From assembly GCA_947053545.1 (NCBI GenBank), contig CAMRSY010000003.1, forward strand, positions 25,114-89,113: 64,000 nt of DNA. Direction: 5' to 3'. Position 1 is the stretch's first letter. Each line of letters opens with the position of its first letter. Positions 11,598 to 58,722 of the stretch are shown here, one piece after another. Made by a program: the position numbers and the translations under genes. The stretch is from an uncultured Clostridia bacterium (lineage in GTDB: Bacteria > Bacillota > Clostridia > Christensenellales > Borkfalkiaceae). The notes beneath the pieces were generated by a model that saw only the letters and a program-made list of their open reading frames with translations, was not told where the DNA came from and did no database searches.

Positions 11598-11625
11598 TAA
11601 TTAATATAAGGGGGCGCGGTTTGTT

Positions 11626-13602: not shown

Positions 13603-13621
13603 AATTATGATAATTTTAATA

Positions 13622-13658
13622 AGCGCCCGGACGGAAATTTTCCGTCCGGGCGCTTTTA
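13622..13658 (+). terminator. Terminator after the EAL gene
   Basis: A perfect GC-rich stem (AGCGCCCGGACGGAAA with its complement, 13622-13654) is followed by TTTT. Confidence 0.92.
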
Positions 13659-13782
13659 TGTCACAAGGCAATAGTTAATTTAATTTGTCAGTTTGACTTT
13701 TATGTTATACGGCGTATCCGCAACATACGTGCCCCCGCAATGACAGTATGCAACATTTTTGTTTTCCGCCGTTAAATTTTTA

Positions 13783-13811
13783 TTTACATTTTTCTTTATT
13801 TTAACTATAAT
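13783..13811 (+). promoter_or_regulatory. Sigma-A promoter of lepA, close to the start codon
   Basis: TTTACA (13783-13788), 17 bp, TATAAT (13806-13811). The -10 ends only 9 nt before the lepA ATG at 13821, so the mRNA would begin within about 3 nt of the start codon. Confidence 0.75.
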
Positions 13812-13820
13812 TAAAACATA

Positions 13821-39276: not shown

Positions 39277-39332
39277 CGCTATGTTAATCTGTTGTTGCCG
39301 TAACAAGGCTTAAAACAGTGCGGGAAGAAGAA

Positions 39333-40163
39333 ATGCCTTTAAAGTTAATGTACATCACAAATAAGCCCGAGGTTGCGGAAATAGCGCAGGAATGCGGCGT
39401 CGATATCGTATGGGTCGACCTTGAAACTTTGGGTAAAGAGGAAAGACAGCACAACATGAATACGGTAAAATCGCGCCATACTTTGCAGGACGCGGCAAAC
39501 GTATCGAAAGTGCTTACAAATTCTTCGCTTATGGTGCGCGTAAACTGCTGGAATGAAAACTCGCAAGCCGAAATAAACGGCGCCGTAACCGCGGGGGCGC
39601 AGCTTATAATGCTGCCTATGTGGAAAACGGTTTCCGAGGTAAAAAAATTTATAGACGCCGTAGACGGACGCGCAAAACCGGTACTGCTTATAGAGACTAA
39701 AGAGGCGGTAGAGTGCCTTGACGAAGTGTTAAAACTTAAAGGTATATACGCGTTTCATATAGGGCTTAACGATTTGCATTTAAGTTTCGGGCTTAAATTT
39801 ATGTTTCAGTTGCTGTCCGACGGCACGGTTGAAAAGATCTGTAAAAAAATAGCCGCGGCAAATATACCTTACGGTTTCGGCGGAATTGCCAAAATAGGCG
39901 AAGGAACGCTTCCCGCCGAAAATATTGTTTTAGAACATTACAGGTTGGGTTCTACACGGGCGATACTGTCGCGGAGTTTTTGCAACGCCGAACAAATTGG
40001 CGATTTGAAAGAGATTAAGCGTATTTTCAAAGAAAACGTAACCAAGTTGAGAGAGTTTGAAAAATATGCGGCTACGGCGGACGAAGCAACGCTTAACGAA
40101 AACAGAAAAATTGTTGCAGATAAGGTTGACTGGGTAGTTAAAAACCTGCAAACGGTGCGTTAA
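39333..40163 (+). CDS. HpcH/HpaI-family aldolase-like protein
   Basis: The 276-residue TIM-barrel protein belongs to the HpcH/HpaI aldolase group, divalent-metal enzymes that join or split 2-oxo acids such as pyruvate with aldehydes. Visible blocks are VDIVWVDLETLG, MVRVNCWNE, AGAQLIMLPMWKT and VLLIETKEAVECLDE. The substrate is not predictable. I chose the ATG at 39333 over a GTG at 39318 because GGAAGAAG lies just before it. It is followed after one base by a fold-III PLP enzyme, so the two probably act in sequence to make a polysaccharide building block. Confidence 0.8.
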   Translation: MPLKLMYITNKPEVAEIAQECGVDIVWVDLETLGKEERQHNMNTVKSRHTLQDAANVSKVLTNSSLMVRVNCWNENSQAEINGAVTAGAQLIMLPMWKTVSEVKKFIDAVDGRAKPVLLIETKEAVECLDEVLKLKGIYAFHIGLNDLHLSFGLKFMFQLLSDGTVEKICKKIAAANIPYGFGGIAKIGEGTLPAENIVLEHYRLGSTRAILSRSFCNAEQIGDLKEIKRIFKENVTKLREFEKYAATADEATLNENRKIVADKVDWVVKNLQTVR

Positions 40164-40164
40164 T

Positions 40165-41385
40165 ATGAATGAACAACTTTTAAACAAATTGATAAACCGC
40201 TTCGGCGGCGCGTTTTATATACTCGATACAAAGCAGTTTAAGCTGAATTACTCTCAGCTGAAAAAGGCGTTTGCGGATATTTATCCGAATTTCGAAATCG
40301 CGTATTCTTATAAAACAAACTATACTCCCAAACTTTGCAAAACCGTGGATGCGCTGGGCGGATATGCCGAAGTCGTTTCCGATATGGAAATGAAAATAGC
40401 GCTTAAGGCAGGCGTTAAGCCCGAAAAAATTATCTGGAACGGGCCGTATAAAAATTATGACGAAGTTGAAAATCTGTTGCTTGCGGGCGGAACCGTCAAC
40501 ATCGATTCGGTTTACGAAATCGAAAAAATCAAAGACATTGCAGCGCGCAATCCTCAAAGCGTTTTAAACGTCGGTATAAGGGTAAATTTCGATATCGGCG
40601 ACGGCGTTACGTCGCGTTTCGGTTTCGATATTCATTCCGAAGATTTTAAAAAAGCTTTTGCCTTAGTAAACGGCGCCGACAATATCGTGCCGGCGGGGAT
40701 ACAGTGTCACTTTGCTACGCGCAGATTGGAAACGTGGAAACCCCGCGCGGAAAAAATGATTGCTCTTTTAGACGGGCTGGGTATTGTTCCCCGTCGGATT
40801 GACCTTGGCGGCGGACTTTTCGGAAAGATGGCGGATTCGCTTAAAGCCCAGTTCGACTGCGATATACCCGACTATCTGCAGTATGCCGGCGAGGTTGCGC
40901 CTATGTTTGCCGAAAGATATAAAAACGAACGGGAAAAGCCGTTGCTTTTAATCGAGCCGGGCAGCGCGCTTGTAGGCGACTGTATGAAATTCGCTTCGCA
41001 GGTTGTAAACGTAAAAAATGTAAGGGGCAAAAGTATAGCTACCTTATTGGGAAGCATCTACAATATAAATCCAACGTTAAACAAAAAAAATCCTCCCGTC
41101 GAGGTGTTTCATACCGGTGCGGGAGAAGCGGAAGAATACGCAAATTTGGATTTCGGCGGATTTACGTGTATAGAGTCAGACTATCTGTACCGCAATTTCA
41201 GCGGAAAACTTGCCGTAGGCGATACCGTGGTATTCGGTAACGTCGGTTCGTATTCGGTGGTTCTCAAACCCCCGTTCATATTGCCTAATTTTCCCGTAAT
41301 TGAAATTGACGGCGAAAATGTTAATTTGATAAAGAAAGGCGAAACGTTCGACGATATTTTTCACACATTCGATTTTAACGCGTAA
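40165..41385 (+). CDS. Fold-type III PLP enzyme, diaminopimelate-decarboxylase-like
   Basis: The 406-residue protein has the alanine-racemase-type barrel and the beta-domain of DAP/ornithine decarboxylases. The PLP lysine lies in AYSYKTNYTPKL (about residue 48). EPGSALVGD binds the cofactor phosphate, and CIESDYL resembles the catalytic CESxD loop with one residue inserted. Its place in a polysaccharide locus beside an aldolase and an aminotransferase argues against a housekeeping lysA. The true substrate could be another D-configured amino acid or amino-acid conjugate. This last point is inference. Confidence 0.8.
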   Translation: MNEQLLNKLINRFGGAFYILDTKQFKLNYSQLKKAFADIYPNFEIAYSYKTNYTPKLCKTVDALGGYAEVVSDMEMKIALKAGVKPEKIIWNGPYKNYDEVENLLLAGGTVNIDSVYEIEKIKDIAARNPQSVLNVGIRVNFDIGDGVTSRFGFDIHSEDFKKAFALVNGADNIVPAGIQCHFATRRLETWKPRAEKMIALLDGLGIVPRRIDLGGGLFGKMADSLKAQFDCDIPDYLQYAGEVAPMFAERYKNEREKPLLLIEPGSALVGDCMKFASQVVNVKNVRGKSIATLLGSIYNINPTLNKKNPPVEVFHTGAGEAEEYANLDFGGFTCIESDYLYRNFSGKLAVGDTVVFGNVGSYSVVLKPPFILPNFPVIEIDGENVNLIKKGETFDDIFHTFDFNA

Positions 41386-41399
41386 CGCGGCGGAGCGGT

Positions 41400-42164
41400 A
41401 TGTTCTATATAAACAAATTTTTTAAAAGGCTATTCGATATTTTTTCTTCGCTTATAGCCATAATACTTTTAATTCCCGTGTGGATTATCATCCCCGTTGC
41501 CATAAAGTGCGATTCGAAAGGCCCCGTATTTTTCAGGCAGGAGCGAAGAACGAAAAACGGCAAAATTTTTAAAATGCTTAAATTCCGCTCGATGGTTGTA
41601 AATGCGGAGCATAGCGGCGCGGGGCTGTTCAATTATAAAGACGACCCCCGCGTAACAAAAGTAGGCAGATTTCTCCGCAACACAAGTATCGACGAATTGC
41701 CTCAGCTGTTCAATATTTTTATCGGCAATATGTCTGTCGTCGGTCCGCGCCCCTGCGTTTCGTACGAACTCGGCGATTTCGAATCTTTAAACGCAAAGTA
41801 TAAAAAGCGTTTTAAAATGAAAGCGGGTTTAACGGGACTTGCCCAGGTTAAGGGGCGCAACGATATCAGCTGGGACGAGAAAGTTAATTACGACAACCAA
41901 TATATCGACAATTTCAGAAAATACGGAGTTTTCACCGATATAAAAATTTTATGGCTTTCCGTCATTAAGGTTTTTGCAAAAGAAGATATTTACGAAAACA
42001 AGCAGGACGAAGGGTGCGACGACGCCGAGGCGGCAAAACTTGCCGAGGAAGAAATTATACGAATTGCGCACCTGCCCGACGGCGGCGGGGAAACCGCGGC
42101 GCATCAAACCGCGGCGCATCAAGAAGATTTGGCTGAAGAAAACAATTTTGAGGAAATGCAATGA
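41400..42164 (+). CDS. Initiating sugar-phosphate transferase (PglC/WcaJ C-terminal type)
   Basis: This bacterial sugar transferase moves a sugar-1-phosphate from a nucleotide sugar to undecaprenyl phosphate, starting the repeat unit. The N-terminal membrane hairpin (about residues 8-35) is followed by GPVFFRQERRTKNGKIFKML (in two blocks), DPRVTKVGRFLRNTSIDELP and MSVVGPRPC. The core ends near residue 200. The last 50 residues are an acidic tail that contains a perfect 15-nt tandem duplication. It overlaps the next gene by 4 nt. Confidence 0.93.
   Translation: MFYINKFFKRLFDIFSSLIAIILLIPVWIIIPVAIKCDSKGPVFFRQERRTKNGKIFKMLKFRSMVVNAEHSGAGLFNYKDDPRVTKVGRFLRNTSIDELPQLFNIFIGNMSVVGPRPCVSYELGDFESLNAKYKKRFKMKAGLTGLAQVKGRNDISWDEKVNYDNQYIDNFRKYGVFTDIKILWLSVIKVFAKEDIYENKQDEGCDDAEAAKLAEEEIIRIAHLPDGGGETAAHQTAAHQEDLAEENNFEEMQ
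42091..42120 (+). repeat. 15-nt perfect tandem repeat inside the sugar transferase gene
   Basis: AAACCGCGGCGCATC occurs twice in a row (42091-42105 and 42106-42120). It keeps the frame and encodes a repeated TAAHQ in the acidic tail. Confidence 0.9.
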
Positions 42165-43093
42165 AATACGATATAGCAAACAGGCTTGTATGGTTTAAAG
42201 GCGAACTTATTAACGTAAACGACGCTAAAATAAATGTTCTGGCACCCACGTCGCAGTTCGGGCTTAACGTTTTCGAAGGCGTTCCCGGTTACTGGAACGA
42301 ACAGCGGGGGCAGCTTTATATGTTCAGGCTCGACGACCATTACAACCGTTTAATGAAATCGGCCAGACTTTTGCAGATAGACTGTCCTTTTACTAAGGAA
42401 GAGTTGAAAACCGCGCTGACTGACGTAGTTAAAGCCAACGACTACCGCGAAAATATTTCGGTACGGCAAACGCTGTTTGTCGAAGGGTTCGGGTCATGGG
42501 GCTCGTCAGACCCGGTAAATATGTTTGTCGCCCCCATTCCTAAGGGTAAAATGAGTGCCGAATACAATAAAAAAGGTTTAAATTGCTGTATAACGTCGTG
42601 GAGAAGAATAAGCGATACTACGCTGTCTCCGCGCATAAAATGCGGAGCCAATTATATAAACAGCCGTATGGGTCAGCGCGAAGCGTTGCGGAACGGTTAC
42701 GACACCTGCATATTTTTAAACGAGGCGGGTAAAGTTTCGGAAGGCCCCGGTTCGTGTTTATTTATGGTAAAAAACGGCGAACTTATTACGCCCAAACTTA
42801 CCGACAGCGTGCTTGAAAGTATTACGCGCGATACGGTTATAAAAATAGCGCGCAACGCGTTGGGGTTAAAAGTTACCGAAAGAAGCGTTGACCGCACCGA
42901 GCTCTATACGTGCGACGAGGCGTTTTTATGCGGTTCGGCAATGGAAATAACGCCGGTTATTTCCGTTGACGGCTACACTGTGGCAAATGGCGAAACAGGC
43001 AAGCTGACAGGCAGTCTGCATAAAACTTATCTTGAAATTGCTTTGGGCGAAAGGGAAGAATACGCCGACTGGGTAACGGGGATTTATAACTGA
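42161..43093 (+). CDS. Class IV aminotransferase (IlvE/D-amino-acid aminotransferase-like)
   Basis: The 310-residue fold-type IV PLP enzyme transfers an amino group to a 2-oxo acid. The PLP lysine lies in IKCGANYINSRMGQREA, and SEGPGSCLF and GSAMEITPV are the conserved downstream blocks. It resembles branched-chain aminotransferases, but its setting suggests a dedicated role: it could aminate the 2-oxo acid made by the HpcH-type aldolase two genes upstream. It is coupled to the sugar transferase by an ATGA overlap. Confidence 0.85.
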   Translation: MKYDIANRLVWFKGELINVNDAKINVLAPTSQFGLNVFEGVPGYWNEQRGQLYMFRLDDHYNRLMKSARLLQIDCPFTKEELKTALTDVVKANDYRENISVRQTLFVEGFGSWGSSDPVNMFVAPIPKGKMSAEYNKKGLNCCITSWRRISDTTLSPRIKCGANYINSRMGQREALRNGYDTCIFLNEAGKVSEGPGSCLFMVKNGELITPKLTDSVLESITRDTVIKIARNALGLKVTERSVDRTELYTCDEAFLCGSAMEITPVISVDGYTVANGETGKLTGSLHKTYLEIALGEREEYADWVTGIYN

Positions 43094-43866: not shown

Positions 43867-43896
43867 TTTTTAGCCGGGCGTTTGAATCGAGGATTT

Positions 43897-44739
43897 ATGA
43901 AAGAAAAATGTAAATACGTATTCGTAATATTAACTTACAGAAATACTGTGGACATCGTTGAGTTGTTTGAAAGTATAAAAAAAGAGGCGGACGATTATAA
44001 AGCTATAGTCGTCAACTCGTTTTACGACGACGAAACGAAGCTTAGTATTCAGTCTACGGCGCTTAAATACGGCGCGCATTTTATAAACGTGGAAAACAAG
44101 GGTTACGGGTACGGAAATAACAGAGGTATCGAATTTGCTTTAAATTATTACGAATTCGATTGGCTTATTATAGCCAATCCTGATACGGTAATAAAGAAAT
44201 TCGATTTTTCCGGACTTGTTTCCAACGAGCCGTCAATAATTGCTCCTGAAATAAGAAATTTAAAAAACAAGCGTCAAAACCCGATGAAAAAGTCGGTTTC
44301 GCGTTTGGGAATCAAGGCGCAGCTTAAAGGGTTTAAAACGAACAGCAAGTTTTTAATTTATACCGGTATTGTATTAAGCAAACTTAAAAATTCGTTAACG
44401 GTAAGCAGAAGGACTAAATGGAATAAAAAAGTAAAACTTATCGATACCGCCCACGGCAGCTTCGTAATTTTTTCTTCGTCCGCCTTAAGCATTCTCGGTA
44501 CTCCTTACGACGAAAAAGTTTTTTTGTTCGCGGAGGAAGGAATACTGGCAAAGACGTCGCAGAGGGCAGGTATAAAAACTTATTATTATGACGGAATTTC
44601 TGTGTTGCATAAGGAAGACGGCTCAATGAAATTCCGTACGGATTTAAGCGAGCAGCTGGCAAAATCGAATATATACGCATACGAAAATTATTTTTGTTCG
44701 GACAGTAAAACGTCGAACCCGTCGGAGACCCGCAAATGA
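43897..44739 (+). CDS. Rhamnosyltransferase-like family 2 glycosyltransferase
   Basis: The 280-residue protein has YVFVILTYRN at the N-terminus, NKGYGYGNNRGIEFA and LIIANPDT, the pattern of GT2 enzymes related to dTDP-rhamnosyltransferases. The rhamnose genes downstream make dTDP-rhamnose a plausible donor, which is inference. I chose the ATG at 43897 after GAGG. A TTG at 43882 is also in frame. Its end overlaps the polymerase gene by 4 nt. Confidence 0.85.
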   Translation: MKEKCKYVFVILTYRNTVDIVELFESIKKEADDYKAIVVNSFYDDETKLSIQSTALKYGAHFINVENKGYGYGNNRGIEFALNYYEFDWLIIANPDTVIKKFDFSGLVSNEPSIIAPEIRNLKNKRQNPMKKSVSRLGIKAQLKGFKTNSKFLIYTGIVLSKLKNSLTVSRRTKWNKKVKLIDTAHGSFVIFSSSALSILGTPYDEKVFLFAEEGILAKTSQRAGIKTYYYDGISVLHKEDGSMKFRTDLSEQLAKSNIYAYENYFCSDSKTSNPSETRK

Positions 44740-47552: not shown

Positions 47553-48434
47553 ATGAAAGGAATAATTTTAGCCGGAGGATCGGGCACAAGGCTTTATCCG
47601 CTTACCAAAGTAACAAGCAAGCAGCTTTTGCCCGTTTACGACAAACCTATGATATATTATCCGTTGTCAACGCTTATGCTGGCGGGTATCAGGGACATAT
47701 TAATTATTTCCACACCGGCGGATTTACCCAATTTTCAAAAACTTCTGGGCGACGGAAGCGATTTCGGATTAACGCTTTCATATAAAGAACAGCCCAGTCC
47801 CGACGGGCTTGCCCAGGCATTTTTATTAGGGGAAGAGTTTATAGGCGGCGAGCCGTGCGCAATGATACTGGGCGACAACATTTTTTACGGCGGCGGGCTT
47901 GGCGACAGATTGCGTGAAGCCGTTGCAAACGCGCGCAGCGGTTACGCCACTATTTTCGGATATTATGTTCAGGACCCCCAGCGGTTCGGTATTATGGAAT
48001 TCGAAGATGAAAGTAAAATAATTTCGGTTGAAGAAAAGCCGGAAAATCCCAAATCGAATTATGCGATTACCGGTTTGTATTTTTATCCTAAAGGCGTAAG
48101 CGAAATGGCAAGCCAGGTTAAAAAATCGGATAGGGGAGAGTACGAAATAACTACTCTCAACGAAATGTATCTCCAAAAAAATTTGTTGCGTGGAATTGTG
48201 CTGGGGCGCGGATTTGCCTGGCTTGATACGGGCACTATGGACAGCCTTATCGAAGCTTCCGAATTTGTTCGTATGCTGGAAAAAAGGCAGGGGGTTAAAA
48301 TTTCCGCTATCGAAGAAATAGCCTATCGTAAAGATTGGATAACAAAGGAACAGCTTTTAAGCTCCGCCGAAAAATACGGCAAGTCGCCCTATGGCGAACA
48401 TTTGAAAAACGTTTCGGAAGGTAAAATATTATGA
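47553..48434 (+). CDS. rfbA: Glucose-1-phosphate thymidylyltransferase
   Basis: RfbA makes dTDP-glucose, the first step to dTDP-L-rhamnose. The 293-residue protein starts [18 protein letters not shown] and has [27 protein letters not shown] and the late [21 protein letters not shown] precedes the ATG. It opens the rfbACBD block and overlaps rfbC by 4 nt. Confidence 0.98.
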
Positions 48435-48988
48435 GTAAATTCACTTTTGTAAATACCGCTATCGAGGGGGTATATATAATAGAGTCCACGGTATACGGCG
48501 ACGACAGGGGATATTTTACCGAAACATATAACGAAAACGAGTTTAAAGCCAACGGATTGAATTATACCTTTGTTCAGGATAATCAGTCTAAAAGTAAAAA
48601 GGGCGTTTTGCGCGGATTGCATTTTCAAAAAACCTATCCGCAGGCAAAACTTGTGCGCGTGTTGGAAGGCGAGGTTTTCGACGTTGCGGTGGACTTGCGT
48701 AAAGGCAGTAAAACTTACGGCAAATGGGCGGGTGTAATTCTTTCGGGTGAAAACAAGAAGCAGTTTATAATTCCGCGCGGTTTTGCCCACGGTTTTTATG
48801 TGCTGTCCGAAACCGCCACGTTCTGCTACAAATGCGACGAATTTTATCATCCGGAGGACGAGGGCGGCATTATTTGGAACGACCCCGACATTGCAATCGA
48901 TTGGGGAGACGTAACGGGCGTGCTGTTAAGCGAAAAGGATAAAAATCACAAAACGTTAAAAGAAAGCAAGGCGGTATTCGATTTATGA
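48431..48988 (+). CDS. rfbC: dTDP-4-dehydrorhamnose 3,5-epimerase
   Basis: RfbC epimerises dTDP-4-keto-6-deoxyglucose at C3 and C5. The 185-residue cupin shows [30 protein letters not shown] (catalytic His) and [13 protein letters not shown]. It overlaps rfbA and rfbB by 4 nt each. Confidence 0.98.
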
Positions 48989-50013
48989 AAAAAACAATTC
49001 TGGTAACGGGCGGCGCGGGGTTTATAGGCAGTAATTTTATTTTTCATATGCTTGAAACCTATCCCGACTATAAAATAGTTTGCGTAGACAAACTTACCTA
49101 TGCGGGCAATCTTTCAACGCTTAAAAGCGTGCTGTACAACCCGCGTTTCCGCTTTGTTAAGGCGGACATTTGCGACAGGGAAACAATTTTTAAGGTCTTT
49201 GAAGAAGAAAAGCCCGATACCGTCGTCAACTTTGCGGCTGAAAGCCACGTTGACAGAAGCATAGAGCAGCCTGAAATATTTTTAAAGACTAACATAATAG
49301 GCACGGCAACGTTAATGGACGCCTGCCGCAAGTACGGCGTTTCGCGTTATCATCAGGTATCAACCGACGAGGTTTACGGCGATTTACCTTTGGACAGACC
49401 CGACTTGTTTTTCACCGAACAAACTCCTTTGCATACAAGCAGTCCGTACTCGTCAAGCAAGGCGGGCGCCGATTTGCTTGTTCTGGCATATTACCGCACT
49501 TACGGATTGCCGGTAACAATCAGCCGTTGTTCCAACAACTACGGACCGTATCATTTTCCCGAAAAACTTATTCCTTTAATGATAGCAAACGCATTAAACG
49601 ACAGACCGTTGCCCGTTTACGGAAACGGCGAAAACGTGCGCGACTGGCTGTATGTGGAAGACCATTGCAAAGCGATAGATTTGATTATTCATAAAGGCAG
49701 GGTCGGGGAGGTTTACAACGTCGGCGGTCACAACGAAATGAAAAATATCGACATTGTAAAACTGATTTGTAAAGAACTGGGCAAGCCGGAAAGCCTTATT
49801 ACTTACGTTGCGGACAGAAAAGGGCACGATTTGCGTTATGCTATAGACCCTGAAAAAATTCACAGCGAACTTGGTTGGCTGCCCGAAACAAAATTTGCGG
49901 ACGGAATTAAAAAGACGGTTAAATGGTATTTGGATAACCGCGGCTGGTGGGAAGAAATAATTTCGGGCGAATATAAAAATTATTACGAAAAAATGTACGG
50001 TAACAGAAAATGA
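48985..50013 (+). CDS. rfbB: dTDP-glucose 4,6-dehydratase
   Basis: RfbB forms dTDP-4-keto-6-deoxyglucose. The 342-residue extended SDR has VTGGAGFIGSNF (NAD-binding), AAESHVDRSI, STDEVYGDL and YSSSKAGADLL (catalytic YxxxK). Its product can go to rhamnose through rfbC and rfbD, or to an aminosugar through the DegT aminotransferase at 56931. Confidence 0.98.
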   Translation: MKKTILVTGGAGFIGSNFIFHMLETYPDYKIVCVDKLTYAGNLSTLKSVLYNPRFRFVKADICDRETIFKVFEEEKPDTVVNFAAESHVDRSIEQPEIFLKTNIIGTATLMDACRKYGVSRYHQVSTDEVYGDLPLDRPDLFFTEQTPLHTSSPYSSSKAGADLLVLAYYRTYGLPVTISRCSNNYGPYHFPEKLIPLMIANALNDRPLPVYGNGENVRDWLYVEDHCKAIDLIIHKGRVGEVYNVGGHNEMKNIDIVKLICKELGKPESLITYVADRKGHDLRYAIDPEKIHSELGWLPETKFADGIKKTVKWYLDNRGWWEEIISGEYKNYYEKMYGNRK

Positions 50014-50873
50014 AGGTATTGGTAACCGGCGCTAACGGACAACTCGGGTTCGATTGCGTAAACGAACTTAATAAACGCGGTCATACGGCAGTAGGCGTAG
50101 ATATAGCTGAAATGGATATAACCGACGGGGCGAGCGTTGCCGGCGTTATGCGCAAAGTCAGCCCCGACGCGGTTATTCATTGTGCGGCATGGACGGCGGT
50201 TGACGCGGCGGAAGCGGAAGAAAACAAACAAAAAGTTTATGCCGTAAACGTTAAAGGCACCGAAAATATTGCGTTGCAGTGTAAAGAGTTAAACTGCAAA
50301 ATGATTTACGTTTCAACCGACTACGTATTCGACGGAAGCGGCTGCGAACCGTGGCAGGCTGATTGCAAAAATTTCAGTCCGCTGGGTTGGTACGGTGAAA
50401 CCAAACTGGAAGGCGAACTTACGGTTTCAAATTTGCTGACAAAATACTTTATAGTGCGTACGGCGTGGGCTTTCGGAGAACACGGCAATAATTTTGTTAA
50501 AACTATGATAAAGCTGGGCAAATCGCAAAACGAAATACGCGTTGTAAACGATCAAATAGGTACGCCCACGTATACTTTCGACCTTGCGCGTTTGCTTGTG
50601 GATATGCTTGAATCGGACAGGTACGGTTATTACCATGCAACTAACGAAGGCGGTTATATCAGTTGGGCCGACTTTGCAAAAGAAATTTTCAGGGTAGTGG
50701 GGCTGAAAACAAAAGTTATACCGGTAACGACCGAAGAATACGGAAGCAAGGCGTTGCGGCCGAAAAACAGCAGATTGGATAAATCAAAATTAGTGCAAAA
50801 CGGATTTAGCCGTTTGCCCGTATGGGAAATTTCACTTAAAGCATATCTGAAGAATATCAACGAAATTGAGTAG
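50010..50873 (+). CDS. rfbD: dTDP-4-dehydrorhamnose reductase
   Basis: RfbD reduces the 4-keto group to give dTDP-L-rhamnose. The 287-residue SDR has VTGANGQLGFDC, STDYVFDG, YGETKLEGE and RTAWAFGEHGNNFVKTM. It completes the rhamnose pathway and overlaps rfbB by 4 nt. Confidence 0.97.
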   Translation: MKVLVTGANGQLGFDCVNELNKRGHTAVGVDIAEMDITDGASVAGVMRKVSPDAVIHCAAWTAVDAAEAEENKQKVYAVNVKGTENIALQCKELNCKMIYVSTDYVFDGSGCEPWQADCKNFSPLGWYGETKLEGELTVSNLLTKYFIVRTAWAFGEHGNNFVKTMIKLGKSQNEIRVVNDQIGTPTYTFDLARLLVDMLESDRYGYYHATNEGGYISWADFAKEIFRVVGLKTKVIPVTTEEYGSKALRPKNSRLDKSKLVQNGFSRLPVWEISLKAYLKNINEIE

Positions 50874-50894
50874 TTATTAAAGGTGTATCGTAAT

Positions 50895-51815
50895 ATGAAC
50901 AATATTTATGTAAGGGTGCGCGGAGGATTGGGCAACCAGTTGTTTCAGTACTCGTATGCCATTGCTCTTCAAAAAGTTAATCCCAATTACAAAATAATAC
51001 TCGATGCAAAGGAATACGACGATTATTATTGGCCGTTTCAGCTTAACGAATACGTTACGGACGGTACAGAGGTCAGCTACGGTAAAAAACTTAAATGCGA
51101 CGCGTCGATGCGCTTTTTTCACTTGTATCAGTTTTTGTATTCCAGAATAAAGAAACACACTTACGTTACCTCGGAACGGCTTATAAAAAAAGGTAAGCTT
51201 TATAGCGGTACTTTCAGCCCCCAAATAAGAAAGTACGATGGTAAAGATATATATGTGTACGGTTATTTTCAGGACGCGGCAATTTTGCAGCCGCTGCGCG
51301 AAGAACTGGCGGAAATAATAAAGTTAAAAAATTTTAGCGAAAAGGTTAGCGTATATAAAAAAAATATAGGACCTGCCGCGGTTGCTGTTTCCGTGCGCGT
51401 GGCAAGAAAGGAAGAGCTTGCCAACGGCGAAAAATACGTTTACGACGGAGCGGAATATTATAAAAACTGTCTGGCTTTAATCAAGCAAAAGAGGGGGGAA
51501 ATTCAACCCGTAGTTTTTTCAAACGACGTGGAGCGTATTAAAAGCGAAGCGTGGTTCGACGATATAGGCAAAGATATCATATATATAGAAAACTGTTCGG
51601 CAACCGAACAACTTGAAATAATGAAAAATTGCAACGATTTTGTTTTGGCTAACAGTACCTTTTCGTGGTGGGGGGCATTCCTCGGCGCAGCGGGAAAAGA
51701 CAGCATAATTTATGCGCCTAAAATTTGGTACGAAGGCGAAGACGTAAGCGATACAAAGCTAATGTTCGACGGAATGAAAATTTACGGGGCGGATAACGGA
51801 GAAGGCAATAAATGA
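50895..51815 (+). CDS. GT11-like glycosyltransferase (alpha-1,2-fucosyltransferase family)
   Basis: The 306-residue protein opens with VRVRGGLGNQLFQYSYA, the signature of GT11, and carries NSTFSWWGAFLG near the C-terminus. The usual GDP-fucose-binding HxRRxDY motif is not clear: the matching place reads VSVRVARKEEL. The donor may therefore not be GDP-fucose, and no fucose synthesis genes are in the window. I chose the ATG at 50895 after AAAGGTG rather than a GTG at 50883. It overlaps the phosphonate gene by 4 nt. Confidence 0.85.
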   Translation: MNNIYVRVRGGLGNQLFQYSYAIALQKVNPNYKIILDAKEYDDYYWPFQLNEYVTDGTEVSYGKKLKCDASMRFFHLYQFLYSRIKKHTYVTSERLIKKGKLYSGTFSPQIRKYDGKDIYVYGYFQDAAILQPLREELAEIIKLKNFSEKVSVYKKNIGPAAVAVSVRVARKEELANGEKYVYDGAEYYKNCLALIKQKRGEIQPVVFSNDVERIKSEAWFDDIGKDIIYIENCSATEQLEIMKNCNDFVLANSTFSWWGAFLGAAGKDSIIYAPKIWYEGEDVSDTKLMFDGMKIYGADNGEGNK

Positions 51816-53812
51816 AAGCGCTTATATTAAACTCGGGATTAGGTCACCGCATGGGTGACATTACAAAAAATCACCCAAAATGCCTAACGGAAATTTCGCA
51901 GAACGAAACTATTTTAAGCAGGCAGTTAAAATTAATTGTAAAAGCCGGTATTAAAGACGTCGTAATAACGACTGGTTACTACGACGGCGTGCTTGTAAAT
52001 TATTGCAAAGAGCTTAAACTGCCGTTAAACGTTCAGTTTATTAAAAATCCCTTATACGATAAAACTAACTATATCTATTCGATATACTGCGCAAAAGAAT
52101 GTCTTGACGACGATATTTTGCTGATGCACGGCGATTTGGTTTTCGACGAAAATGTGTTGACCGACGTAATTAATTCGTCCGAAAGTTGTATGACGGTAAG
52201 CACAACTGTTCCGGTTCCGGAAAAAGATTTCAAAGCTGTTATCAAAAAAGGTTTAATAACTAAGATTGGAGTGGAATTTTTCGATAATGCATTGGCGGCG
52301 CAGCCTCTGTACAAAATTTTAAAAAGCGACTGGGCGGTATGGCTTAATAAAATATGCGAATTTTGCGAAAACAAGCAGGTAAACTGCTATGCAGAAAACG
52401 CGTTTAACCAAATTTCGGATAAGTGTGCTATTGCGCCTCTCGACGTAAAAAACCGACTTTGCGGAGAAATTGATACGCCTGAGGATTTGGAGGTTATAAA
52501 GAAAATGTTGCAACAACAAAAAACCGTTTATATGTGTTTTTCAACCGATATGGTTCACAGCGGTCATATCGACATAATACGTAAAGCTGAAAAGCTTGGC
52601 AGACTTATTATAGGCGTATTGTCCGACGAAGCCGTTGCAAGTTATAAAAGATTTCCTCTGCTTCCTTTTGCAGAAAGGAAATCGCTGTTCGAAAACATTA
52701 AAGGCGTAAGCGAGGTTGTGGAACAGAAAGATTTAAGCTATAGCGAAATAATAAAAAAGTACAAGCCCGACTATGTCGTGCACGGTGACGACTGGCGCGA
52801 GGGATTTCAAAAACCCGTCCGCGAAGAGGTGATATCGCTTCTTAAAAAATATGGCGGCGAACTGGTGGAATTTCCTTATTCCAGAGATGATAAGTTCGAC
52901 GAATTGGAACGGCGCTCGCGAGAGCAGCTTGCAATGCCTGACGCACGCCGTAAAAGATTAAAAAAATTGCTTGCCATGAAAGGGCAGATTAACGCTATTG
53001 AAACTCACAGCGGCATAACGGGGCTGATTGCTGAGAAGACAACTGTTTTGCAGGATGGAAAAACCTATCAGTTCGACGCAATGTGGGTGTCAAGTCTTTG
53101 CGATTCTACGGCTAAAGGTAAGCCGGATATCGAGCTTGTGGATATGACTTCGCGTTTCAGAACGGTAGATGATATAATGGAGGTTACAACAAAACCTATC
53201 ATTTTCGACGGCGACACCGGCGGACTTACCGAGCACTTTGTTTATACGGTAAAAACATTGGAGCGAATGGGCGTTTCGATGATAATTATCGAAGATAAAA
53301 CCGGGCTTAAAAGAAACTCGCTGTTCGGTACCGAAGTTAAGCAAACTCAGGACTCAATAGAAAATTTCAGTATGAAAATTGCGGCGGGGAAGCGGGCGCA
53401 AAAGACAAAAGATTTTATGATATGCGCTCGTATCGAAAGCTTAATTTTAGAGCAGGGTATGAACGACGCTTTAAACCGCGCGTATGCGTTCGTATCCGCG
53501 GGTGCCGACGCCGTTATGATTCATAGTAGAAAAAAGGACCCTGCGGAGATATTCGAATTTGTTGAAAAATTCCGCTTAAAAAATACGGTTACGCCTATAG
53601 TTGTCGTGCCTACTTCGTTTAATACGGTTACGGAAGAAGAATTTAAAAAGAGGGGCGTAAACGTCGTCATATACGCCAACCAGCTTACGCGCAGCGGTTT
53701 TCCTGCTATGCAGAATACCGCAAAAACAATTTTAACAAATCACAGGGCAAAGGAAGCCGACGATGCGTGTATGCCCATAAAGGATATAATAACTCTTATT
53801 CCGGAGGAATAA
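51812..53812 (+). CDS. Three-domain fusion: LicC-like NTase, cytidylyltransferase, PEP mutase
   Basis: The 666-residue protein should make and activate a phosphonate. Domain 1 (about 1-230) is a LicC/PntC-like nucleotidyltransferase (MKALILNSGLGHRMG, HGDLVFDENV). Domain 2 (about 235-365) is a glycerol-3-phosphate-cytidylyltransferase-like domain with HSGH at 249-252 and VVHGDDW. Domain 3 (about 380-666) is phosphoenolpyruvate mutase, which forms the C-P bond of phosphonopyruvate. Its diagnostic EDK-x5-NS motif is EDKTGLKRNS at 494-503, with FDGDTGG before it. Domains 2 and 3 match the architecture of Fom1 of fosfomycin biosynthesis, which makes CMP-hydroxyethylphosphonate. The RTxGISTT loop of TagD-like enzymes is not evident. 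The ATG overlaps the preceding stop. Confidence 0.92.
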   Translation: MKALILNSGLGHRMGDITKNHPKCLTEISQNETILSRQLKLIVKAGIKDVVITTGYYDGVLVNYCKELKLPLNVQFIKNPLYDKTNYIYSIYCAKECLDDDILLMHGDLVFDENVLTDVINSSESCMTVSTTVPVPEKDFKAVIKKGLITKIGVEFFDNALAAQPLYKILKSDWAVWLNKICEFCENKQVNCYAENAFNQISDKCAIAPLDVKNRLCGEIDTPEDLEVIKKMLQQQKTVYMCFSTDMVHSGHIDIIRKAEKLGRLIIGVLSDEAVASYKRFPLLPFAERKSLFENIKGVSEVVEQKDLSYSEIIKKYKPDYVVHGDDWREGFQKPVREEVISLLKKYGGELVEFPYSRDDKFDELERRSREQLAMPDARRKRLKKLLAMKGQINAIETHSGITGLIAEKTTVLQDGKTYQFDAMWVSSLCDSTAKGKPDIELVDMTSRFRTVDDIMEVTTKPIIFDGDTGGLTEHFVYTVKTLERMGVSMIIIEDKTGLKRNSLFGTEVKQTQDSIENFSMKIAAGKRAQKTKDFMICARIESLILEQGMNDALNRAYAFVSAGADAVMIHSRKKDPAEIFEFVEKFRLKNTVTPIVVVPTSFNTVTEEEFKKRGVNVVIYANQLTRSGFPAMQNTAKTILTNHRAKEADDACMPIKDIITLIPEE

Positions 53813-53813
53813 T

Positions 53814-54920
53814 TTGAAGCAGAAAATTATAAGCGGCTATAACGTTTGCCGTAATCTGGGTGAAATTTTAAACGAGTTTGCAGGGCGCAAAATAATGCTT
53901 GTCTGCGATTCGGCTTTTAAATATCTTAATCTTAAAGAGGTTATCGACAGGCTGCCGAATATTATAATTAATTTCGACGGGTTTAAACCTAATCCCGATT
54001 ACTACGACGTTTGCAAAGGCGTGGAAATTTTTCGCGGTTGCGGGTGCGACTCTGTCATAGCTTTGGGCGGAGGCAGTGCCATAGACGTTGCAAAATGTAT
54101 AAAACTTTTTTCTGTTCTGTCTCCTCAAAAAAATTATCTGGAACAAAATTTTGTTGAAAGTAATGTTCCTCTGATGGCAATTCCTACCACAGCGGGAACG
54201 GGTAGCGAATCTACAAAATTTGCCGTAGTTTACTTTAACGAAAAAAAATTTTCGGTAGAAAGTGCAAGTATTTTGCCCGATATCGTAATTTTGGACCATT
54301 CGTTGTTGAATACGTTGCCTCTGTACCAAAAAAAATGCACATTGTTAGACGCATTGTGCCACGGAATCGAATCGTGGTGGTCAGTAAATTCTACCGACGA
54401 AAGCATAGAGTATTCGCGTTTGGCGGTCACGGAAATAATGAGGTGTAAAGACGGTTATTTCAACGGAATTTCCGCCGCGGCAGAAAGAATATTGCTTGCC
54501 GCCAATTACGCGGGTAGGGCGATAAACATAACAAAAACGACGGCTGCGCATGCAATGAGCTATAAATTGACCTCTTTATGTGCAATTCCTCACGGGCATG
54601 CCGTTGCTGTTTGCATTCCGCAGTTGTGGAAATTTATGTATCGCAATACCGGAAAATGTGTTGACGGCAGAGGTGCGGATTATCTTACCGGTATTTTCAA
54701 AGACATTGCAAACGCATTGGGGGAAGACAGCGTTGAAAACGGAATAGAGAAATTTGAAAAAATACTTGAAAGTTTGCTAATAACCGCCCCTTCGGTAAGT
54801 AAAAACGATTTGCAGGTTTTGGCGTCTTCGGTAAACGCGCAGAGATTGCAAAACAATCCCGTAAAACTTTCCGAAGAGGACTTGTTGAATTTATACAAAA
54901 AGATTTTGAAAGAGATATAG
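53814..54920 (+). CDS. Iron-dependent alcohol dehydrogenase, probable phosphonoacetaldehyde reductase
   Basis: The 368-residue group III (iron) alcohol dehydrogenase has GGGSAIDVAKC and PTTAGTGSESTKFAV for the cofactor, and metal ligands D179, H183 (LLDALCHGIES), H246 and H260 (IPHGHAV). Between a PEP mutase and a phosphonopyruvate decarboxylase, the natural substrate is phosphonoacetaldehyde, giving 2-hydroxyethylphosphonate as FomC, PhpC and DhpG do. It starts at TTG 53814 after GGAGGA. The substrate is inferred from context. Confidence 0.88.
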   Translation: MKQKIISGYNVCRNLGEILNEFAGRKIMLVCDSAFKYLNLKEVIDRLPNIIINFDGFKPNPDYYDVCKGVEIFRGCGCDSVIALGGGSAIDVAKCIKLFSVLSPQKNYLEQNFVESNVPLMAIPTTAGTGSESTKFAVVYFNEKKFSVESASILPDIVILDHSLLNTLPLYQKKCTLLDALCHGIESWWSVNSTDESIEYSRLAVTEIMRCKDGYFNGISAAAERILLAANYAGRAINITKTTAAHAMSYKLTSLCAIPHGHAVAVCIPQLWKFMYRNTGKCVDGRGADYLTGIFKDIANALGEDSVENGIEKFEKILESLLITAPSVSKNDLQVLASSVNAQRLQNNPVKLSEEDLLNLYKKILKEI

Positions 54921-54929
54921 AGGTTAAGT

Positions 54930-56042
54930 GTGAAACTCGATTTTTTACAACAGTTCGATTTTTTTACGGGTGTTCCCGATTCGCAGTTGCGCCCCTTATG
55001 CGATTATTTAATGGATAAGTACGGAACCGACCCGAACCATCACATTATCGCCGCAAACGAGGGAAACTGTACGGCTATTGCCGCAGGCTACTATCTGGCT
55101 ACGTCAAAAGTGCCTGTCGTGTATATGCAGAACAGCGGCGAAGGCAACATAATTAATCCCGTAGCGTCGCTTTTAAACGATAAGGTTTACGGAATACCCT
55201 GCTTATTTATCATAGGCTGGCGTGGCGAACCGAACGTTCACGACGAGCCTCAGCATATTTATCAGGGCGAGGTTACATTAAAATTGCTCGAAGATATGGG
55301 TATCGAGTATTTCGTGATAGACAGGGATACGCGTGAAGAGCAGATTAACAGCTGTCTTAAAAACTGGCAAGCTCTGTTAAACGCAGGTAAACAGGTTGCG
55401 TTTGTTGTTAAAAAGGGCGCTTTAAATTATGATAATAAAGTAAAGTATGAAAATTCCAACCTGCTTTCCCGCGAAGAAATAATCGGACATATCGTGTCGG
55501 TGAGCGGCAGCGACCCTGTCATTTCTACGACGGGCAAGGCCTCGCGCGAGCTGTTTGAAATTAGGGAAGCAAATAATCAGGGTCACGGTTACGACTTTTT
55601 AACCGTAGGGTCTATGGGGCACTGTTCGTCAATAGCTTTGGGTATTGCCGTAAATAAGCCCGAGAAAAAAATTTGGTGTATAGACGGCGACGGCGCCGTA
55701 TTGATGCATGCGGGGGCGATGGCAGTAATAGGTTCGGTTAAACCAAACAATTTGGTGCATATCGTACTTAATAACGGAGCGCACGAAACGGTAGGGGGTA
55801 TGCCTACCGTGGCAGGCAACGTCAATCTTGCCGAAATTGCAAAAACCTGCGGTTATGAAAGTTCGGTTAGAATTGCTGATTTAAATCAGCTTGACAAAGC
55901 ATTGCGGGAGGCAAAACACTCGGACGGGCTTTGTTTTATAGAAGTGTTATGCTCTATAGGTTCGCGAAGCGATTTGGGCAGACCCACAACAACGGCGGCG
56001 CAAAACAAGGCGGCTTTTATGAAAACTTTAGGAAATAACTGA
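54930..56042 (+). CDS. Phosphonopyruvate decarboxylase
   Basis: This thiamine-diphosphate enzyme decarboxylates phosphonopyruvate to phosphonoacetaldehyde, the irreversible step that pulls the PEP mutase reaction forward. The 370-residue protein begins with FDFFTGVPDSQLRPLCDYL (in two parts) and has the catalytic-Glu region AANEGNCTAIAAGYYL, the FIIGWRGEP block and the ThDP motif DGDGAVLMHAGAMAVIG near 252-268. The length matches Ppd/Fom2. The start is GTG 54930 after AGAGG. Confidence 0.95.
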   Translation: MKLDFLQQFDFFTGVPDSQLRPLCDYLMDKYGTDPNHHIIAANEGNCTAIAAGYYLATSKVPVVYMQNSGEGNIINPVASLLNDKVYGIPCLFIIGWRGEPNVHDEPQHIYQGEVTLKLLEDMGIEYFVIDRDTREEQINSCLKNWQALLNAGKQVAFVVKKGALNYDNKVKYENSNLLSREEIIGHIVSVSGSDPVISTTGKASRELFEIREANNQGHGYDFLTVGSMGHCSSIALGIAVNKPEKKIWCIDGDGAVLMHAGAMAVIGSVKPNNLVHIVLNNGAHETVGGMPTVAGNVNLAEIAKTCGYESSVRIADLNQLDKALREAKHSDGLCFIEVLCSIGSRSDLGRPTTTAAQNKAAFMKTLGNN

Positions 56043-56043
56043 A

Positions 56044-56934
56044 ATGAAAATTAAAAATTTTTCCGAATTTCAGCAGATTTTGCGCGCGATGACGTATTTT
56101 GTCGACGATTTTTGCAGAAACAACGGGATAAATTATACCGTAATTGACGGTACATTGTTGGGCGCAGTAAGGGGGAGCGACATAATTCCCTGGGACGGCG
56201 ACGTTGATATTGCGTTAACGCATACCGAGTTTGAAAAGTTGAAAAAAGCTTTCGAAAGTTATAATGGCAGATACTGCTTAAGCTATTTTCCCGATCATTT
56301 TTATAAAAAAGGCAAATATTACGGTTTAATTCACGCGCGTATTATCGATAAAAAGGCAACTAACCCTATGCTATGCATAGATGTTTTTACTATCGATTTT
56401 TTGGGCGACGATTATCAGAAGGCATTGCGCACCGTTGAAGAATATAAGCGCTTTGACAGAGAGGCGGAAAAGAGTATTTCCTTTCATTTGCCACCGATAA
56501 GAAAGAATAAACCGTTTATGGTAAATTGCAGAAATTTAATAATAGCCGTTTTGTATCCGTGTTTTTGGCTTTTATCTAAAATGCTTACGCCGAAATTCAA
56601 AAAAAATTATTCGCAATTTATCAAGGATAAAATATCGTTTGACGAATCAAGCAAATTTTATACTATTGAACCGTATTTCGGCAGATTCGGCGTGGAAGAA
56701 AACGATATTTTGAAAAACGGTTATATTGATTTACCGTTTTCCACTTTTAAGGTTATGGCGGTTGCCAATTACGAAACTTATTTAAAAAAGACTTACGGCA
56801 ACTATATGCAACTGCCTCCGCCCGAAAAGCGTGTGCCGTATCCTTCCGAAAAGGAACTTACAAACGGTAAAATTGAGATGGATGACGAGTTGAATTATCT
56901 GTTAAACTGCATTAAAGGAGAAAAAGATATATGA
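56044..56934 (+). CDS. LicD-family phosphotransferase
   Basis: The 296-residue protein has the LicD nucleotidyltransferase-fold signature INYTVIDGTLLGAVRGSDII and PWDGDVDIAL, with the metal-binding DGDVD. LicD proteins transfer phosphocholine or other phospho-alcohol groups from CDP donors to glycans. No choline kinase is present here, and the three genes before it make a CMP-activatable phosphonate. The best guess is transfer of hydroxyethylphosphonate to the polysaccharide. A hydrophobic stretch at about 158-180 may tether it to the membrane. Confidence 0.85.
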   Translation: MKIKNFSEFQQILRAMTYFVDDFCRNNGINYTVIDGTLLGAVRGSDIIPWDGDVDIALTHTEFEKLKKAFESYNGRYCLSYFPDHFYKKGKYYGLIHARIIDKKATNPMLCIDVFTIDFLGDDYQKALRTVEEYKRFDREAEKSISFHLPPIRKNKPFMVNCRNLIIAVLYPCFWLLSKMLTPKFKKNYSQFIKDKISFDESSKFYTIEPYFGRFGVEENDILKNGYIDLPFSTFKVMAVANYETYLKKTYGNYMQLPPPEKRVPYPSEKELTNGKIEMDDELNYLLNCIKGEKDI

Positions 56935-58052
56935 TAAATGTTATGCAACCCACTTTGGGCAAAGAAGAGCTTGACGCGCTTGAAAAAACTTTTGCTTCCA
57001 ACTGGATAGGCAAGGGAAAAAAAGTTGCCGAATTTGAAGAAATTTATGCAAAGCATTTAGGTTCGACAAAGGATAAAGTATTAAGTACAAACTGCTGCAG
57101 CGAGGGTTTATTTTCGTCTATGCATCTTTGCGACATAAAGCAGGACGACGAGGTTATTTTGCCTACCGTCAGTTTTATAGGCGCAGGCAATGCGGTTTGT
57201 GCGCACGGTGCAAAAATGGTGCTGTGCGACGTTGATTCCCGCTCGCTTAACGCGCGTGCATGCGATATCGAAAAGGTTATAACTAAAAAATCGAAAGCCA
57301 TTTTGCTGTTGCATTTCGGAGGAATCCCTTGCGAAATGGACGAAATTATGAAACTTGCTAAGGCCTATAATTTAAAGGTAATCGAAGATTGTGCGGCCGG
57401 AGTATGTTCAAGTTATAAAGGTAAGGCGCTCGGAACGTTCGGAGATATAGGAATGTGGTCGTTCGACGCAATGAAAATTTTGGTGTGCGGCGACGGCGGA
57501 ATGTTGCATTTCAACGACAGCGCTCTGCGTGAGCGCGCCGAAAAATGGCTGTATTTCGGGTTGGAAACAAAAAGCGGCTACGAAAACAGCGTTGCTCAGA
57601 AATGGTGGGAGTTTGACGTGTCGAGTTTCGGACACAGGGCTATAATGAACGACGTTACGGCAACAATAGCTATCGAACAATACAAAAAATTGCCTATGTA
57701 TATGCAAAAGCGTAAAGCCGTTCACGATTTTTACAATGACAGCCTGAAGGGGCTGGACTGGCTTGATTTGCCTCTTCCCATTCCCGACGATTGCAAAACT
57801 TCTTACTATTTTTATCATATACAGGTTAAAAACGGCAAGCGCGACGAATTGGCGGCGTATCTTCGTAAAAACGATATTTACACGACGTATAGGTATTTCC
57901 CTTTGCACAGGGTGCCTGGATACCATGCGGAAGGTCATTTCCCCAATGCCGATTACGCAGCCGATAACACTTTGTGTTTACCGATACACCAAAGTCTTAC
58001 GGAAAGCGAGTTGGAATATATTGCGGATAAAATAATTAAATTCGGCAAATAA
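56931..58052 (+). CDS. DegT/DnrJ/EryC1-family sugar aminotransferase
   Basis: The 373-residue fold-type I PLP enzyme aminates 4-keto (or 3-keto) nucleotide sugars. The cofactor-binding VIEDCAAGVCSSYKGK and the lysine block GMWSFDAMKILVCGDGGML are clear, and RYFPLHRVPGY is typical near the end. Candidate substrates are the product of the PglF-like enzyme at 36126 (giving a bacillosamine-type sugar, as PglE) or that of RfbB. A role on the phosphonate as an aminoethylphosphonate transaminase is less likely for this family. It overlaps licD by 4 nt. Confidence 0.92.
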   Translation: MINVMQPTLGKEELDALEKTFASNWIGKGKKVAEFEEIYAKHLGSTKDKVLSTNCCSEGLFSSMHLCDIKQDDEVILPTVSFIGAGNAVCAHGAKMVLCDVDSRSLNARACDIEKVITKKSKAILLLHFGGIPCEMDEIMKLAKAYNLKVIEDCAAGVCSSYKGKALGTFGDIGMWSFDAMKILVCGDGGMLHFNDSALRERAEKWLYFGLETKSGYENSVAQKWWEFDVSSFGHRAIMNDVTATIAIEQYKKLPMYMQKRKAVHDFYNDSLKGLDWLDLPLPIPDDCKTSYYFYHIQVKNGKRDELAAYLRKNDIYTTYRYFPLHRVPGYHAEGHFPNADYAADNTLCLPIHQSLTESELEYIADKIIKFGK

Positions 58053-58073
58053 TTCATTGCGGAGTAAATTCAG

Positions 58074-58661
58074 ATGGAAGAAAAAAATACACAAACCGAA
58101 AACAAGCAAATCGATTACGTAGCCATATCGTGTAAAAAGTCGACAAAAATCAAGAAAGCTTTTTATATGTTTTTCGATTGGCTTCTTCCCGATTACGTTT
58201 GGGGAATATTCGGCAAACTTGCAAATAAAATACGTGTATTTCTTGCCAGAAGACTTTCTAAAGGTATAAATAAAAAAGTAATTTTAAGAAAGGGGATGGA
58301 TGTTTATCCCGGAATAGTGCTTGAAAAGGGCGTTGTAATAGGCAGAAACGTTTCGCTTGACTGGGGAGTAACCATCAAGGAAGGCACAAGAATAGGTAAG
58401 TATACAGCTTTCAATACGCAAAACCATAAACGGAATTTCGAAAAGGGAATTTTCGAAGGACTTACGGAAATAAGACCTGTCACTGTGGGCAAAAATTCCT
58501 GGATAGGAGAAAAAAGCACAATTCTTGCAGGCGTTACAATTGGCGATTTCACTACTATAGGAGCGGCGTCGGTAGTAACTAAAAGCGTTCCTTCTAACTG
58601 TATGGCTTGCGGCAATCCCGCCGTTGTTAAAAAGGTTTACGAAATGAACGGCGCCGATTGA
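58074..58661 (+). CDS. Hexapeptide-repeat O/N-acyltransferase
   Basis: The 195-residue protein has a 75-residue basic N-terminal part and then left-handed beta-helix repeats (IVLEKGVVIGRNVSLDWGVT, VGKNSWIGEKSTILAGVTIG), ending GNPAVVKKVYE like maltose- and serine-type O-acetyltransferases. It probably acetylates the polysaccharide or the aminosugar made by the preceding DegT enzyme. It lacks the N-terminal Rossmann domain of PglD. It is the last gene of the operon, before the terminator at 58701. Confidence 0.87.
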   Translation: MEEKNTQTENKQIDYVAISCKKSTKIKKAFYMFFDWLLPDYVWGIFGKLANKIRVFLARRLSKGINKKVILRKGMDVYPGIVLEKGVVIGRNVSLDWGVTIKEGTRIGKYTAFNTQNHKRNFEKGIFEGLTEIRPVTVGKNSWIGEKSTILAGVTIGDFTTIGAASVVTKSVPSNCMACGNPAVVKKVYEMNGAD

Positions 58662-58700: not shown

Positions 58701-58722
58701 GCCCGCTTAACGCGGGCTTTTT
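58701..58722 (+). terminator. Terminator of the polysaccharide operon
   Basis: GCCCGC, TTAA, GCGGGC (58701-58717) followed by TTTTT. Confidence 0.9.

Follow-up and report, generated by a model that had tools for sequence, protein, structure and literature searches.

The 666-residue protein encoded at positions 51812..53812 on the forward strand of a 64,000-nucleotide stretch from an uncultured Clostridia bacterium (contig CAMRSY010000003.1 of assembly GCA_947053545.1; hereafter the window) joins three domains in one chain: a LicC/PntC-like nucleotidyltransferase (L), a Fom1-like cytidylyltransferase fold (T) and a phosphoenolpyruvate (PEP) mutase (P). We favour, with reasonable though not strong confidence, the view that this triple fusion and its neighbours form a module that tailors an exopolysaccharide with 2-hydroxyethylphosphonate (HEP), in which L, a counterpart of PntC acting on HEP, is fed by a phosphonopyruvate decarboxylase (Ppd) and an iron alcohol dehydrogenase (Fe-ADH) and passes its product to a LicD-family protein. 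The triple enzyme of this gut bacterium probably makes carbon-phosphorus compounds for the sugar coat of the cell surface, and the comparison of its relatives suggests which of the two activating domains does the activating, and on which compound.

The protein was analyzed with Pfam and NCBIfam profiles and an AlphaFold model (m032b3d045f9d, mean pLDDT 88.7). L occupies residues 1-232 (51812..52507), T with its linker residues 233-383 (52508..52960) and P residues 384-666 (52961..53809). An initial annotation, made from the sequence alone, had already distinguished three segments, but its limits of 1-230, 235-365 and 380-666 had to be moved to about these positions. In Pfam, L is matched by NTP_transferase (PF00483, residues 2-135, E = 5e-9) and NTP_transf_3 (PF12804, 3-125, E = 7e-9), T by CTP_transf_like (PF01467, 246-340, E = 2e-15) and P by PEP_mutase (384-641, E = 1.2e-52; also PF13714), and the protein scores 394.9 bits against TIGR02320 for PEP mutase (cut-off 319.55). 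The mutase motif EDKxxxxxNS is present as EDKTGLKRNS at residues 494-503. It was found in 91 of 92 triple fusions, a set made up of the window protein, 76 of 80 relatives, 14 fused loci of a second sample and one plasmid-borne protein (L223). The domain identities of the fusion and of the genes that follow are thus confirmed far beyond chance, and the Pfam and TIGR matches agree with the earlier description of one protein with LicC-like, HSGH and PEP mutase parts, followed by Fe-ADH and Ppd.

Judged by the function of its family, P would convert PEP to phosphonopyruvate. Ppd (54930..56042, forward strand, like the other genes from 47553 to 58661 described below; TIGR03297, 463.9 bits, cut-off 312.5) would turn this into phosphonoacetaldehyde, which Fe-ADH (53814..54920; PF00465, E = 2e-38, and PF25137), the proposed phosphonoacetaldehyde reductase, would reduce to HEP. 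L, as a PntC variant with a histidine in place of an amine-contacting glutamate, is the proposed cytidine triphosphate (CTP):HEP cytidylyltransferase and would form CMP-HEP from HEP and CTP. The LicD-family protein (56044..56934; PF04991, E = 9e-23, 82 bits, cut-off 22.6), whose place may be taken in some relatives by a CDP-glycerol glycerophosphotransferase family protein, would then transfer HEP onto the glycan. What was observed is gene order, family membership, conservation, co-occurrence and fusions; the reactions themselves, and the compound on which L acts, are all inferred. An early phosphonate pathway leading to HEP and serving a surface glycan, as originally proposed, is supported. 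The label 'fosfomycin-like' fits the first steps but not the later ones, as neither a B12 radical-SAM (S-adenosylmethionine) methyltransferase nor an epoxidase was found in a scan that covered the operon proteins between 32865 and 58661 and not the rest of the genome.

A structure search with the full-length model found the LicC/PntC fold for L. The consensus GXG(T/S)RX4-8PK, which includes Arg15 and Lys25 of PntC, recurs in L as GLGHRMGDITKNHPK, with H instead of T/S, and G9, G11, R13, K23 and D108 are retained. Two PF12804 enzymes (PntC) are described as activating 2-aminoethylphosphonate (AEP), and in that of Treponema denticola Glu104 and Glu196 are directed at the AEP amine (Rice et al., 2019, PMC6697681). 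In the alignment, the place of Glu104 is taken in L by His106 (codon 52127..52129). The same position is histidine in 111 of 111 proteins of the window's L type and in five more triples, and the PntC-type proteins of AEP-transaminase loci have glutamate there in 26 of 27 cases and alanine in one (L187). For this comparison 22 PntC-type proteins were aligned (glutamate in 22 of 22), and all 27 AEP loci were evaluated by pattern.

To place the fusion among its relatives, one scan of representative genomes was used, which reported 179 relatives; the best 80 were kept, with loci extending up to 10 kb on either side. These best 80 of 179 are 70-78% identical to the window protein over at least residues 1-646. 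Their contigs are titled Clostridia, Bacteroidales and families of these, with one Erysipelotrichaceae, and most of these titles point to gut or rumen bins. Sequences this similar in different phyla may have spread by horizontal transfer. Fe-ADH is encoded in 75 of the 80 loci, Ppd in 75 and both in 74, and no AEP transaminase was found near any of the 80 triples.

These counts bear on the possibility that the product is AEP, formed from phosphonoacetaldehyde by a DegT-family aminotransferase or another transaminase, with L as an ordinary PntC. A DegT-family gene (56931..58052; PF01041, E = 2e-83) does come after LicD, and L has the PntC fold. However, the closest NCBIfam models of the DegT protein, all below their cut-offs, are sugar transaminases, so that it probably serves a glycan sugar rather than AEP, and the amine-contacting glutamate of PntC is histidine in L. 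The genome itself (1.5 Mb, 43 contigs) contains one PEP mutase, and a profile search of it, at 85.55% completeness, gave no AEP transaminase above the cut-off. With no such gene there or in the 80 triple loci, where Fe-ADH is found in 75, AEP was rejected as the product and is in our judgement highly improbable.

Which domain follows which branch was assessed in 84 loci of the window's own phylum (Clostridia-type Bacillota, judged from named relatives), picked solely by a PEP mutase score above the cut-off. Of the genomes above it, four of genus g172 (G850, G913, G922 and G949) and the window's own were left out, and all others were used. Two-domain T-P proteins were accordingly sampled from this phylum, with Bacteroidota doubles outside the sample. 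Three proteins are identical across the two sets (L168 = L002, L174 = L016, L179 = L051), so the counts hold a few duplicates. Neighbours were counted by profile; those for L, Fe-ADH and AEP transaminase were built from proteins of the same loci, and the thresholds, above 110 bits in the case of the window's L type, were our own choice. This L type was found in 35 of the 84 loci, fused in 15 and as a separate gene in 20. It was accompanied by Fe-ADH in 31 of the 35 and by an AEP transaminase in one (L154), while the corresponding numbers for the loci without it were 2 and 27 of 49. All 27 AEP-transaminase loci that lack the window's L type encode another, PntC-type L with a nucleotidyltransferase motif at most 5 kb from the gene for the mutase. 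T, in the form of T-P doubles, occurs with both AEP-transaminase and Fe-ADH loci. L171 has a T-P protein whose nearest relative (76%) comes from an AEP locus, yet the window's L type and Fe-ADH are present; conversely, the T-P of genus g327 is placed among alcohol-branch T-P proteins, yet is found with a PntC-type L and an AEP transaminase.

Other arrangements were seen as well. L154 (6723-15691) contains a triple with Fe-ADH as well as a T-P double with an AEP transaminase, so that HEP and AEP may both be products of this locus; its triple is preceded by two short Ppd-like frames that resemble the remains of a broken copy. In L161 (100-6165), L166 (4196-10402) and L169 (8642-14814), T-P is found in a third setting, with Ppd and neither Fe-ADH nor AEP transaminase. 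The neighbours there, identified partly by eye, are metallophosphatase-like, epimerase-like and nucleotidyltransferase-like ('VAGSSTRF' type) genes and one for an NAD-binding protein, possibly a third phosphonate branch. L172 (8382-13407) combines a T-P double with Fe-ADH and no L. Between the two, by eye, lie an aldolase/isopropylmalate-synthase-like gene and a gene for a 532-residue protein resembling thiamine pyrophosphate enzymes, and the locus possibly represents another phosphonate pathway.

Gene fusions tie L to Fe-ADH. In L182 a single protein combines the two, and in L181 they are joined by a glycosyltransferase of the GT2 family; L072 and L074 have Fe-ADH and LicD in one chain, all by Pfam. 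Together these fusions point to a linked chain of steps, namely reduction, activation and transfer. By eye the C terminus of the L181 protein is LicD-like; it received no Pfam call and was not counted. Five T-P loci have a separate L gene, whose product is 61-65% identical to the N-terminal domain of the triple, with Fe-ADH in the examined stretch in four of them. In a tree lacking L168, L181, L188, L199 and L220, the fused proteins form one group (14 rows at 91, including 12 at 98*) near a clade with separate L and T-P, a pattern that a single origin of the triple out of neighbouring genes would produce.

T presents a different picture. It resembles the cytidylyltransferase domain of Fom1 (5x3d, E = 4e-39), and its HSGH motif lies at residues 249-252 (52556..52567). 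HxGH is present in 90 of the 92 triples, one of the others having HSAH and one being unmatched by the search slice, and the stretch HGDDW..G.Q is conserved as in Fom1. The alignment stops just short of GISSTRL in Fom1. At the place expected for RTEG(I/V)ST(S/T), the window protein reads FPYSRDDKFDEL (52871..52906), and this type of signature was absent from all 92 triples and from five further ones (L002, L044, L058, L080 and L168), which agree with both the signature and the histidine counts. Fom1 has it within YTPGISSTRL. The RTEGISTT-type motif is described as the second of the two usual CTP/pyrophosphate-binding signatures (PMC8262930, PMC6060094). The initial annotation was to be refuted if the two domains lacked nucleotide-binding residues. 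The outcome is divided, since L has the five residues named above, and T retains HxGH but lacks the second signature. The structure search listed no match to T, as matches to the P domain fill the list.

Since T lacks this signature and is common to the AEP branch, it is unlikely to be the part that decides the product. The initial annotation had implied that the HSGH domain makes CMP-HEP, regarded the LicC-like domain as an extra and suggested that the two might serve different substrates. This assignment is not supported, T being without its second signature and present in both branches, while the L type tracks the alcohol branch and occurs in fusions with Fe-ADH, and each of the 27 AEP-transaminase loci has a PntC-type protein in its stead. 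For the same reasons two different substrates are not needed to explain two domains, although there may be two. Candidate roles for T are a weak additional activity on HEP, the sensing of CTP or of a phosphonate on behalf of the mutase, and a structural one.

Several observations weigh against L as the HEP-activating domain of such a module. His106 marks a single clade, so that its presence throughout the L type is explicable by common descent alone. The Fisher p values for the association of the L type (2.5e-16 and 2.3e-7) ignore relatedness. In an independent-pairs test seven pairs were available, of which on average 3.5 agreed, 0.3 disagreed and 3.3 tied (median p 0.25); the association is thus not significant after correction for relatedness, and seven pairs cannot reach 0.05. 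Four loci have the window's L type and no Fe-ADH in the examined stretch, and although L157 and L211 are short contigs, L156 (17.5 kb) and L212 (13.6 kb) are not. Five triples have no Fe-ADH: that of L007, a short contig; that of L032, where the sequence stops within the fusion; those of L033 and L053, which lack the Fe-ADH/Ppd cassette in 22 kb; and that of L025, which lacks it too. The L025 triple (10001-12007) has EDRIGLKQNS as its mutase motif, with EDR for EDK. LicD is present in 41 of the 80 triple loci, and LicD or a CDP-glycerol-transferase-like gene in 45. Fe-ADH scores 150.3 bits against TIGR03405, the model of a phosphonate-linked Fe-ADH (named PsrA, not PhpC), far below its cut-off of 423.7. 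T, for its part, is as conserved as L, with a mean pairwise identity among triples of 71% for the T core and 68% for L, which argues that T does something and lends no support to a dead relic left to drift. T-P loci without any L-type gene in the examined stretch exist as well (L159, L167, L170, L186 and L191, among others). T may therefore be the active cytidylyltransferase there, and we do not claim that it is never the sole nucleotidyltransferase.

The last two points would fit a T domain that, like Fom1, makes CMP-HEP, with L activating a second substrate, a phosphonate or a phospho-alcohol, for the same glycan. Its homology to the Fom1 domain, which is reported to be HEP-active (PMC6697681), and the conserved HxGH and HGDDW..G.Q stretches speak for such a role. 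Yet the missing signature in 92 of 92 triples speaks against it, as does the fact that T does not track HEP, T-P doubles being found with AEP transaminase and with Fe-ADH. There is also no sign of a second phosphonate branch in the cassette (AEP transaminase 0 of 80), and the L181 and L182 fusions join L to Fe-ADH, the presumed HEP-forming step. We therefore consider this division of labour unlikely.

Alternatively, both domains may work on HEP, either as two HEP cytidylyltransferases or with T as a second CTP/HEP site that is regulatory or hands the compound on, so that the fusion concentrates intermediates or CTP gates the mutase. The strong purifying selection on each domain is compatible with this, and so is the grouping of the fused proteins near T-P rows with a separate L. 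Residue 333 of T is mostly Q in HEP loci and in Fom1 and E in many AEP loci, as if T saw the phosphonate. However, this pattern, suggestive as an HEP/AEP switch, was rejected as such; it is broken by genus g327 (AEP, with Q) and by E in transaminase-less loci, and it largely follows the tree. Two HEP sites in one chain appear to us rather improbable. Beyond the assignment of HEP activation to L, we put forward as a tentative idea, more doubtful than probable, that in phosphonate tailoring T is often not the product activator but a shared, partly dismantled domain, kept to bind CTP or a phosphonate and to gate or scaffold the mutase. A swappable LicC-type enzyme would then pick the phosphonate (HEP, AEP or a third), and the triple would be gate, mutase and HEP activator joined.

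The setting of the fusion is an exopolysaccharide operon. Directly upstream lies a gene for a GT11-family glycosyltransferase (50883..51815; PF01531), preceded by rmlA, rmlC, rmlB and rmlD for dTDP-rhamnose (47553..50873; TIGR01207, TIGR01221, TIGR01181 and TIGR01214, all above cut-off). Genes for a Wzy-like polymerase, a flippase, glycosyltransferases and a sugar-phosphate transferase lie upstream as well; on account of these genes we regard the phosphonate genes as part of this operon. The DegT gene is followed by one for a hexapeptide-repeat acetyltransferase (58074..58661; PF00132). Between 50883 and 58661, seven genes follow one another at distances of -4, 1, 9, 1, -4 and 21 bases and are likely one operon, given these tiny gaps and a terminator-like stem at 58701-58717, although stems of this kind do not occur more often in the region than in its shuffles. 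Fe-ADH starts with TTG, preceded by the ribosome-binding-like GGAGGA, and Ppd with GTG. Within the same operon, 39318-43093 encodes an HpcH/HpaI-type aldolase, a pyridoxal phosphate-dependent decarboxylase that comes closest to the diaminopimelate decarboxylase model without reaching its cut-off, a sugar-phosphate transferase and an aminotransferase of class IV (ilvE-type, above cut-off), perhaps for an unusual amino-acid substituent on the glycan. The protein at 43882-44739 had no family match in the operon scan. Elsewhere in the window, 26290-31920 encodes a 1876-residue DUF4011/AAA helicase with an MTES_1575 nuclease domain, reminiscent of defence helicase-nucleases.

The module is also found in named, cultured species and is therefore experimentally accessible. 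The triple of Segatella copri DSM 18205, 74.7% identical over its full length, lies on a 167-kb plasmid (NZ_CP085933.1, L223), where it is annotated aepX and followed by aepY, a 'phosphonoacetaldehyde reductase' gene and one for a CDP-glycerol glycerophosphotransferase family protein. It is surrounded there by genes for polysaccharide synthesis or modification, and downstream of it an acyl carrier protein and a protein for amino-acid adenylation are encoded. Hungatella hathewayi DSM 13479 (L039) carries the module too. Its Ppd beside the triple consists of two adjoining frames (13198-14355) and may be broken; a further Ppd-like frame is present at 20528-21703 on the opposite strand. Near two further triples, an L protein with glutamate at the Glu104 place forms a fusion of its own, with a class I/II aminotransferase in L008 (14310-16124, 604 residues) and with LicD in L036 (8309-9985, 558 residues). 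These score 102 and 92 bits, below the 110-bit threshold, and would provide a second route of activation in addition to that for HEP.

Exopolysaccharides bearing HEP have been described for actinomycetes. Polysaccharides that carry HEP esters occur in marine dissolved matter (PMC9381506), and no paper linking such esters to gut glycans was found in one open-licence literature library. Histidine versus glutamate at the Glu104 place of PntC, together with an adjoining Fe-ADH versus AEP transaminase, is a candidate rule for the type of phosphonate on gut bacterial surfaces. Our results also raise the question of why a PEP mutase keeps a cytidylyltransferase domain without the second signature.

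The three-domain architecture is not itself new, since the Fig. 2 legend in Rice et al. (2019, PMC6697681) gives the number of triple fusions of PF12804, PF01467 and PF13714, the same three Pfam domains as in the window protein, as 42 in a total of 1485 Ppm proteins. Most Ppm proteins carry a fused nucleotidyltransferase according to that paper, whose passages on the triples give their count alone, with neither a pathway nor a role for either nucleotidyltransferase domain; the term 'alcohol dehydrogenase' does not occur in a search of its main text. PntC of T. denticola (6pd1/6pd2) and Atopobium rimae is an AEP cytidylyltransferase, whereas the window's L has His106 for Glu104, sits with Fe-ADH instead of an AEP transaminase and is fused ahead of T-P. 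Fom1 (5x3d being its cytidylyltransferase domain) shares with the window protein the T-P arrangement, HxGH and HGDDW..G.Q, but the latter has an additional N-terminal L and a T without the GISST stretch. As with the PhpC-type phosphonoacetaldehyde reductase (PMC9381506), an Fe-ADH family member stands beside PEP mutase and Ppd in the window. The two are likened by family, the window enzyme having the iron alcohol dehydrogenase domains and scoring below the TIGR03405 cut-off. Finally, phosphocholine tailoring by the lic system (LicC/LicD) draws on imported choline, whereas the window locus would build its phosphonate from PEP.

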